Assembly (NCBI GenBank): GCA_016286365.1
Contig: JAEESN010000013.1
Coordinates: forward strand, 1 to 64,000
Direction: 5' to 3'
From: Treponema sp.
GTDB taxonomy: Bacteria > Spirochaetota > Spirochaetia > Treponematales > Treponemataceae
Length of the DNA stretch: 64,000 nt
Shown here: in pieces, positions 336-59,925 of the stretch
How positions within the stretch are numbered: the stretch's first letter is position 1
How the letters are laid out: each line of letters begins with the position of its first letter
Translations under genes and position numbers: made by a program
The notes under the pieces: model-generated
Told to the model about the DNA's origin: nothing
Seen by the model: the letters and a program-made list of their open reading frames with translations, nothing else
Database searches by the model: none

Positions 336-449
336 ATGCCAGTGGCCATAGTGGAGAGGCAATACCCGTTCCCATTCCGAACACGGAAGTCAAGCTCTCT
401 AACGCTGATGATACTGCTCTCTAGCGGGAAAGTAAGTAGCTGCTGGCTT
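336..449 (+). rRNA. rrf: 5S ribosomal RNA
   Basis: This is a 5S rRNA of about 113 nt just downstream of 23S. It contains the conserved core CCCATTCCGAACACGGAAG, and its ends pair (TGCCAG with CTGGC). A short T-run (448-453) follows directly, with no separate terminator hairpin. The 3' part (414-428 and 439-447) is copied in the repeat immediately downstream. End positions are approximate by a few bases. Confidence 0.95.
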
Positions 450-484
450 TTTTATTTTTAAAGTCATACATCTTAGCACCAGTG

Positions 485-734
485 CCCGCTAGAGAGCAGC
501 AGAACGATTTGCGCAAAGCGCGGCGGCTGTCGGTGCAGCCGCACAGAACGGCTCTTAAGCGCGACGTTTGCGAAGCAAACTCGGTAGTGAGCGAACGCAG
601 TGAGGGAACGTAGGAAAATAGCTAGCTGCTGTTCGACTAGCAAAACAATCTTTATAAAAAATCAATGATATATGAATTTGGCTCATCCGCTAAACTGCGG
701 GAGAAAGATTTATCTTTCTGCTGCTGGCTTTTTT
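485..734. repeat. Structured repeat carrying copies of the 5S rRNA 3' end
   Basis: This 250-bp non-coding stretch fills the gap between 5S and mazE. It opens with an inverted 15-nt copy (485-499) of 5S bases 414-428. It then has GC-rich hairpins: GCGGCTG/CAGCCGC at 523-529/536-542 and GTTTGC/GCAAAC at 566-571/575-580. A 9-nt direct copy of the 5S end (623-631) is followed by a TTCGACTAGCAAA tail. A GGAGAAA hairpin (703-709 with 712-718) runs into a 15-nt direct copy of the 5S end with its T-run (720-734). The same arrangement follows tRNA-Gln at 59592. No coding frame with a plausible start was seen. I do not recognise a named family. Confidence 0.7.
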
Positions 735-59339: not shown

Positions 59340-59440
59340 TGTTATCTGATTATCTGTCGTAAAAAACTCCCATTTTTTCTCATTTATTGCAAAAATCAAG
59401 CGTTTATGTTATTGTAACAATTATTAAATCATTATAACTT

Positions 59441-59513
59441 TGGGCCGTCGTCAAGCGGTAAGACACGGGCTTTTGGTGCCCGCATTCCACAGGTTCGAAT
59501 CCTGTCGGCCCAG
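59441..59513 (+). tRNA. tRNA-Gln (TTG)
   Basis: A 73-nt tRNA: acceptor TGGGCCG pairs with CGGCCCA, anticodon arm CGGGC-TTTTGGT-GCCCG (anticodon TTG), T-arm ACAGGTTCGAATCCTGT, discriminator G. CCA is not encoded. A TTGCAA...TATTGT promoter (59387-59415) is likely. Its last 18 bases are copied 237 bp downstream. Confidence 0.96.
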
Positions 59514-59533
59514 GTATTAAAGTTAAACAATAA

Positions 59534-59563
59534 AACCATTGCCAAAGGGCAATGGTTTTTTTT
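59534..59563 (+). terminator. Terminator of tRNA-Gln
   Basis: AACCATTGCC (59534-59543) pairs with GGCAATGGTT (59548-59557) around AAAG, then T8. Confidence 0.94.
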
Positions 59564-59591: not shown

Positions 59592-59925
59592 GCCGACAGG
59601 ATTCGAACCAAAGTGAGCGGCCGTAAAAAGGCGAAGACTTGGAGCGTTTTTACGGCAAATCCGACAGGACGTCGGATTTAGCGAACGAAGGCGCCGCAGA
59701 AGGAGAAAACAGGATGTTTTCGACTGTCGCGGCGAATCCTGTCGGCCCAGTATTCGAACAGCAAACTAATCCAACGTGGCGAATTCTTGTATCTTATTTT
59801 TCGCAGCGGGAGAAACAGTATGTTTCGACCAACGCGGCGAATCCTTACATTCAGTAGCCGTATAGCAACCCCATGTCTCATTACGAATTCACTCTTTCAG
59901 TAGCCGCACAGCCAACCCATTCTTC
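59592..59925. repeat. Structured repeat carrying copies of the tRNA-Gln 3' end
   Basis: This 330-bp non-coding stretch begins with a perfect inverted 18-nt copy (59592-59609) of tRNA bases 59492-59509. Hairpins follow: CCGTAAAAA/TTTTTACGG (59621-59629 with 59647-59655 less one offset base) and AAATCCGAC/GTCGGATTT (59657-59665 with 59671-59679). A GGAGAAA hairpin is GAAAAC/GTTTTC (59705-59710 with 59716-59721). Next comes a perfect direct 18-nt copy of the tRNA end (59733-59750), then the tail TTCGAACAGCAAA (from 59753). A second GGAGAAA-type hairpin (59812-59816 with 59822-59826), an 8-nt tRNA-end remnant (59838-59845) and two copies of TTCAGTAGCCG (59850 and 59896) finish it. No credible gene is present. 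The layout parallels that after 5S rRNA. Confidence 0.75.

Follow-up and report, generated by a model that had tools for sequence, protein, structure and literature searches.

The closest described systems are the tRNA-linked repeat (TLR) genes of E. coli, 22 of which lie at ten loci and which include tyrT/RttR and rrA, rrB, and rrF (PMC8144298). They have been known since 1978 (Egan and Landy 1978 and Rudd 1999, as cited in PMC8144298), and their hallmark, as given in the available text of PMC8144298, is a 3′ end whose 18–19 bp exactly repeat that of the tRNA or rRNA gene lying upstream. Before the description of rrA, rrB, and rrF, read-through RNAs that lie between two terminators and bind CsrA and Hfq, TLRs were without known function; GGA loops are named as the CsrA sites of rrB (PMC8144298). 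The scope of that text is E. coli and related genera, and an inverse copy at the 5′ end goes unmentioned there among the TLR hallmarks. Of the papers found in literature searches, none describes such units in Treponema, judged by title and abstract opening.

In the Treponema DNA analysed here (the whole stretch of 64,000 nucleotides, referred to as the window), the sequence behind the 5S rRNA gene is, with a probability of about 0.6, a TLR-like unit with a degraded second unit behind it. The features of the locus are these:

338–448, plus strand: 5S rRNA gene, the host RNA of the unit (Rfam RF00001, 91 bits).
414–428, plus strand: X, the helix IV segment of the 5S gene (CTGCTCTCTAGCGGG) and source of the inverse copy (repeat search; helix IV is hypervariable in the genus).
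439–453, plus strand: Y, the 5S 3′ end with the first T-run (repeat search).
485–499, plus strand: X′, exact inverse copy of X at the 5′ end of unit 1 (repeat search; helix IV comparison across the genus).
523–542, plus strand: GC hairpin GCGGCTGTCGGTGCAGCCGC in unit 1 (sequence; predicted fold).
566–580, plus strand: hairpin GTTTGCGAAGCAAAC in unit 1 (sequence; predicted fold).
613–631, plus strand: Y2, decayed direct copy of the 5S 3′ end at the 3′ end of unit 1 (84% repeat; intact in relative G145, locus L012).
677–735 (approximate), plus strand: remnant of unit 2, ending in Y3 (720–734, 5S 3′ end with T-run); the block is common to operons C5 and C28.

A sequence-only reading of the locus had reported an inverted copy, a 9-nt copy, and a 15-nt copy of 5S sequence with GC-rich hairpins between them. 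Repeat search recovers all three copies and, together with the predicted fold, confirms that the hairpins are real. The inverted pair (414–428 and 485–499) is identical at 15 of 15 positions. The direct pair 439–467 and 720–748 matches at 86%, its first 15 nt being identical, and the pair 427–445 and 613–631, which matches at 84%, includes the 9 nt TAGCTGCTG at 623–631. Both copied words are nearly unique within the 64-kb window: GCTGCTGGCTTTTTT has two matches with at most two mismatches, both at the 5S locus (0.29 expected), and CCCGCTAGAGAGCAG has two exact matches, again both at the 5S locus, and one elsewhere with three mismatches. Unit 1 of G145 has kept its copy of the 5S end and T-run intact; in the window, 485–631 is therefore taken as unit 1, its 3′ copy having decayed, and about 677–735 as what remains of unit 2. 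A terminator scan over 330–830 gave no terminator-like site.

A second unit of this architecture, here called type A, follows a tRNA gene of the window:

59440–59514, plus strand: tRNA-Gln(ttg), host RNA of the unit.
59536–59563, plus strand: terminator-like hairpin and T-run between tRNA-Gln and the unit (sequence).
59592–59609, plus strand: inverse copy of the tRNA-Gln 3′ half, 18 of 18 (GCCGACAGGATTCGAACC).
59593–59739, plus strand: core of the type A unit (covariance model R1, 111.9 bits; the core is itself a row of the R1 alignment).
59733–59750, plus strand: direct copy of the tRNA-Gln 3′ end, 18 of 18.

The common architecture is an inverse copy of the last hairpin of a stable RNA, several hairpins, and a direct copy of the RNA 3′ end, all on the same strand as the RNA gene and directly behind it. 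The copied hairpin is helix IV of 5S rRNA, or the T-arm of tRNA or tmRNA. Both ends match the local RNA gene, and units occur singly or in tandem. The two window units stand directly behind an rRNA and a tRNA gene, as TLRs do. The TLR-type 3′ end is represented at 18 of 18 positions in the tRNA-Gln unit, and in the 5S unit by just 9 nt of RNA end plus the T-run.

The genome to which the window belongs is a draft of 35 contigs and 2.68 Mb, in which the window lies on contig C3; its three 5S genes are in operons C3, C5, and C28. Operon C5 has both the helix IV sequence and the inverse copy found in C3. Operon C28 differs in helix IV and is without that inverse copy, but it shares the last block, which contains the 5S end and T-run. 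This joint presence of 5S variant and inverse copy in C5, and their joint absence in C28, imply that the end copies exceed chance. When 338–760 was searched in the same genome, the matches were rRNA operons and short terminator or hairpin matches only, and a dispersed repeat was rejected on that ground. Among the matches listed in 196 genus genomes, the window's own genome aside, clear alignment beyond the 5S gene was confined to G145 (1–294 of the 423-nt query) and G119 (1–227). An ancestral spacer, without independent copies elsewhere, had been named as the finding that would count against a mobile element. It is rejected by this narrow distribution and by the difference between C3/C5 and C28; moreover, tRNA and tmRNA genes are followed by units built in the same way, whose ends match the RNA gene in front of them.

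The DNA adjoining the window's 5S unit (759–1370) contains a promoter-like site with 12 of 12 matches (TTGACA-17-TATAAT), followed by an 80-aa ORF and a PemK/MazF-like toxin. In operon C5, a DUF1902/HicA pair occupies the position of this ORF and toxin.

Among 36 tRNA contexts of this genome, inverse copies, direct copies, or both follow tRNA-Gln (the unit of the window), Arg(tcg), Pro(tgg), Pro(cgg), Met (two loci), and Leu(caa). Two tandem units follow tRNA-Thr(cgt), and the architecture seen at 5S is present, whole or in part, at all of these loci. Over 857 kb of the genome, the triple of copy, inverse, and copy was found at 5S and tRNA loci only, besides palindromic tandem arrays and two oddities (165 reverse-complement matches, nearly all of them in tandem arrays, versus 7 in the mirror and 1 in the complement control). 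In a scan of contigs the triple appeared in 43. Treponema is represented, for instance by T. bryantii NK4A124, as are several Desulfuromonadales, with units behind tRNA-Ser and tRNA-Pro, and one Omnitrophota, with a unit behind tRNA-Arg; some matches without a unit or tRNA look like chance, as do some in other phyla. The tRNA units are not universal, since no inverse copy of at least 12 was found in 33 tRNA contexts of G042 or in 36 of G216, which represents genus g9.

Covariance model R1 was built from 31 tRNA-type units (alignment A2), chosen by a pattern that demands the T-arm inverse and its direct complement. The closing stem is therefore true by construction; the inner hairpin (columns 119–124 and 131–136), which covaries in the 31 units, was not built in by the selection. 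R1 matches 65 of 89 genus genomes and has seven matches in the genome of the window. All 30 units inspected, one of which (L337, the tRNA-Arg unit of the window's genome) is also in the model, follow a tRNA or tRNA 3′ piece (29) or a tmRNA (1). Intact tRNA genes lie within 900 nt upstream at 23 of the 30 loci, always on the strand of the unit. At these 23, the inverse end matches the unit's own tRNA with a mean of 12.3, versus 7.4 for other tRNAs, and the direct end with a mean of 16.9, versus 6.0. One of the other seven loci (L365, G036:C16) is a type A unit behind a tmRNA gene, with ends that match the tmRNA, and at another the tRNA is cut by the contig end. In the remaining five (L341, L345, L347, L349, and L356) the unit stands behind a tRNA 3′ piece that has no 5′ half upstream of it, a pattern that integration of DNA into the tRNA gene might leave. 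R1 found no match in the E. coli TLR loci L268, L270–L272, L274, and L275, nor in the 5S units, and no claim of a single ancestor is made for that reason. Rfam searches revealed no Rfam relatives of the units.

The sequence-only reading had suggested that the copies mark the target choice of a small mobile element. Because the rRNA operons differ and units with matching ends stand behind tRNA and tmRNA genes, the idea that the copies mark a target was right in spirit: the ends do match the genes behind which the units stand. The mobile element itself fares less well. A family of small elements that settle behind RNA genes, derive their end sequences from the target, perhaps through target-primed copying, and have no host function would suit the combination of one scaffold with different matching ends at many RNA genes in distant phyla, the tandem arrays, and the varying presence among operons and species. 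We nonetheless consider such a family unlikely. No transposase or recombinase gene is found in the window units, where the largest ORF overlapping 449–758 has 56 aa and the largest overlapping 59592–59750 has 72 aa. Within the 857 kb, no unit was seen away from RNA genes besides the tandem arrays, a few type B hairpin oddities, and one orphan. A clean pair of filled and empty sites was not established, and the constant orientation of the 23 units with an intact upstream tRNA also speaks against such a family. Ordinary transposition, furthermore, leaves ends that differ with each target unexplained. It seems rather improbable, too, that the elements rewrite both ends, one inverted and one direct, from the RNA gene behind which they have settled, and have spread among 5S, tRNA, and tmRNA genes and several phyla by an undescribed copying mechanism. 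Elements integrated in tRNA genes, with their attL and attR sites, resemble the units in the direct copy of the RNA 3′ end, but the window units have no integrase-sized ORF, their ends follow the individual RNA gene, and the inverse copy is added.

The copying would reflect either a small RNA whose match is maintained by selection or an element that remakes its ends wherever it settles anew. The presence of the architecture across a Treponema genus, in Desulfuromonadales, and in one Omnitrophota provides many natural variants for testing both the role of the unit and the matching of its ends. Such units would also account for part of the GC-rich sequence that clutters the regions behind RNA genes in these genomes.

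The matching could be followed in 112 5S loci from 62 genus genomes (29 and 80 from relatives and 3 from the window's genome; loci without downstream sequence and 20 further marked rows were left out, and helix IV of one locus, L058, was set by hand). Helix IV is hypervariable, with 38 variants. The locus's own helix IV recurs inverted within 600 nt downstream, at a score of at least 12, at 30 loci in 23 genomes, where the helix IV of other variants gives an expectation of 1.3. As read from the list, the 30 loci span 12 variants, and 0 of 2000 permutations, in which relatedness was ignored, reach the observed total. In the control region 700–1300 nt downstream the own inverse helix IV occurs at none of the 112 loci, and helix IV is seldom copied in direct orientation downstream of them. 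Direct copies of the own 5S 3′ end are found at 15 loci at a score of at least 16 (1.7 expected) and at 13 at a score of at least 18. When inverse copies of any variant are counted, 16 loci have both copies, 22 the inverse only, 4 the direct only, and 70 neither. The inverse copy tracks the local 5S gene across the genus. Fifteen 5S loci with downstream sequence from other genera of the family had no inverse copy at a score of at least 12.

Of the 36 genomes in which at least two 5S genes were sampled, 8 have more than one helix IV variant. At L022 (G011), the region downstream of 5S is an array of short repeats around CGACCGTACAAAAGTTAATTTA.

At several 5S loci the inverse copy corresponds to a helix IV variant other than the local one. 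The homologous units of G004 and G024 share an identical 5S variant, which the inverse copy matches in G024 only, and in the homologous units of G043 and G130 inverse copy and 5S variant are reciprocally mismatched. These mismatched loci argue against strict pairing in cis. The G004/G024 difference would be expected if fold-back template switching during replication of heavily transcribed RNA genes made the copies, and quasi-palindrome correction kept X and X′ alike without any function; so would the exactness of the inverse matches (539 pairs, with 7 wobble and 10 other differences). It is hard to see single errors producing a shared structured scaffold, with an inner hairpin that covaries in 31 units and extends to several phyla, and it is regularly the last hairpin that is copied. 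This explanation is highly doubtful.

A simple transposon, a passive spacer, and one-off template-switch damage each account for less than the TLR-like reading. The best reading of the units is a TLR-like read-through small RNA, to which GGA hairpins lend support for the tRNA units; the window's 5S unit has none. Transcription that continues beyond the first T-run would produce the unit RNA, as it does for rrA, rrB, and rrF of E. coli. Because of the 3′ copy, the nucleases that trim the host RNA could trim the unit as well; at 5S the copy would also supply the second T-run. In the tRNA units the inverse and 3′ copies would pair and close a small structured RNA, whose GGA hairpins may bind CsrA. 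In the predicted fold of the tRNA-Gln unit the two copies do pair and close a multi-hairpin RNA. Some tRNA units sit behind a strong terminator, so that read-through there would stay low.

The 3′ copy of the window's 5S unit offers no such partner to the inverse copy, which would most likely pair with helix IV of 5S in the unprocessed transcript and so free the 5′ strand of 5S for the distal 3′ copy. The predicted fold of the window pairs the 5S 5′ strand with the distal copy near 720–730. Across the 30 5S loci, the helix of X with X′ is part of the minimum-energy fold predicted for the read-through RNA at 26, with local pairing of the inverse copy at 4; the predicted energy gain over separate folding is about 7 to 32 kcal/mol. 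Pairing of the inverse copy with the 3′ half of 5S, as a processing or termination signal, was the alternative offered by the sequence-only reading, whose interpretation is thus supported in part; it is thermodynamically possible, and would fit the dual-terminator precedent of rrB as described in the available text of PMC8144298. That the inverse copy is just a regulatory antisense segment, unfolding read-through 5S in quality control or attenuation with no independent small RNA, is very improbable: the predicted helices would suit it, but any exact 15-nt complement would behave so, mismatched loci persist, at G053 a terminator-like hairpin separates 5S from X′, and the tRNA-Gln unit is predicted to use its inverse copy as its own closing stem.

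Hairpin loops with GGA are a known kind of CsrA site. They number 1.97 per tRNA unit, versus 0.81 after shuffling, and 0.53 per 5S unit, versus 0.24. The tRNA-Gln unit of the window has three and E. coli rrB two, and csrA is present in the genome of the window. With no GGA loop in the window's 5S unit, a role as a CsrA sponge is unsupported for that unit.

The units noticed in the sequence-only reading belong to a genuine family and are best filed beside the TLRs, with which they share their placement and the 3′ copy; what is new is the inverse 5′ copy, the occurrence in other phyla, and tmRNA as a host. Like TLRs, the Treponema units stand directly behind tRNA or 5S genes, number from one to several in tandem, and copy the RNA 3′ end; the place between two terminators and the GGA hairpins recall rrB. 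The E. coli tyrT unit also starts with an imperfect inverse copy (19 of 22), whereas the inverse 5′ copy is perfect in many Treponema units and absent from the E. coli rrnB and arg TLRs tested. The RtT RNA (Rfam RF00391) is the tyrT member of the TLR kind in E. coli; its model found no match at permissive thresholds in 10 loci or at the tRNA-Gln unit of the window. Further differences from TLRs are that Treponema-type units also occur at tmRNA and in other phyla, and that the R1 scaffold was not found in the E. coli TLR loci, a relationship by scaffold lying outside the TLR definition in the available text of PMC8144298.

A type B hairpin (CCTAAAA..TTTTTTAACGG) is common to 5S units (11 of 112 loci) and to tRNA-Leu(caa) of the window's genome, and it looked putatively like an integron attC. 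At L286 (G042:C1, about 1998.4–1999.3 kb), five tandem 168-bp pseudo-tRNA repeats precede a real tRNA gene, each with a type B hairpin in the anticodon region and then an inverse copy of the tRNA end. The orphan is a type B unit on the minus strand (G000:C31:171399); it has a tRNA-like 3′ end and no same-strand tRNA close upstream, and a tRNA-Gly lies on the other strand. Tandem arrays of the palindromic word TTTACGGACGAAA / TTTCGTCCGTAAA occupy about 251.2–252.0 kb of G000:C31 and about 15.1–15.5 and 38.7–39.2 kb of C29, and a second kind of tandem array, built on ATTTATGTAA, is found at 8.7–9.1, 25.4, and 28.2 kb of C29.
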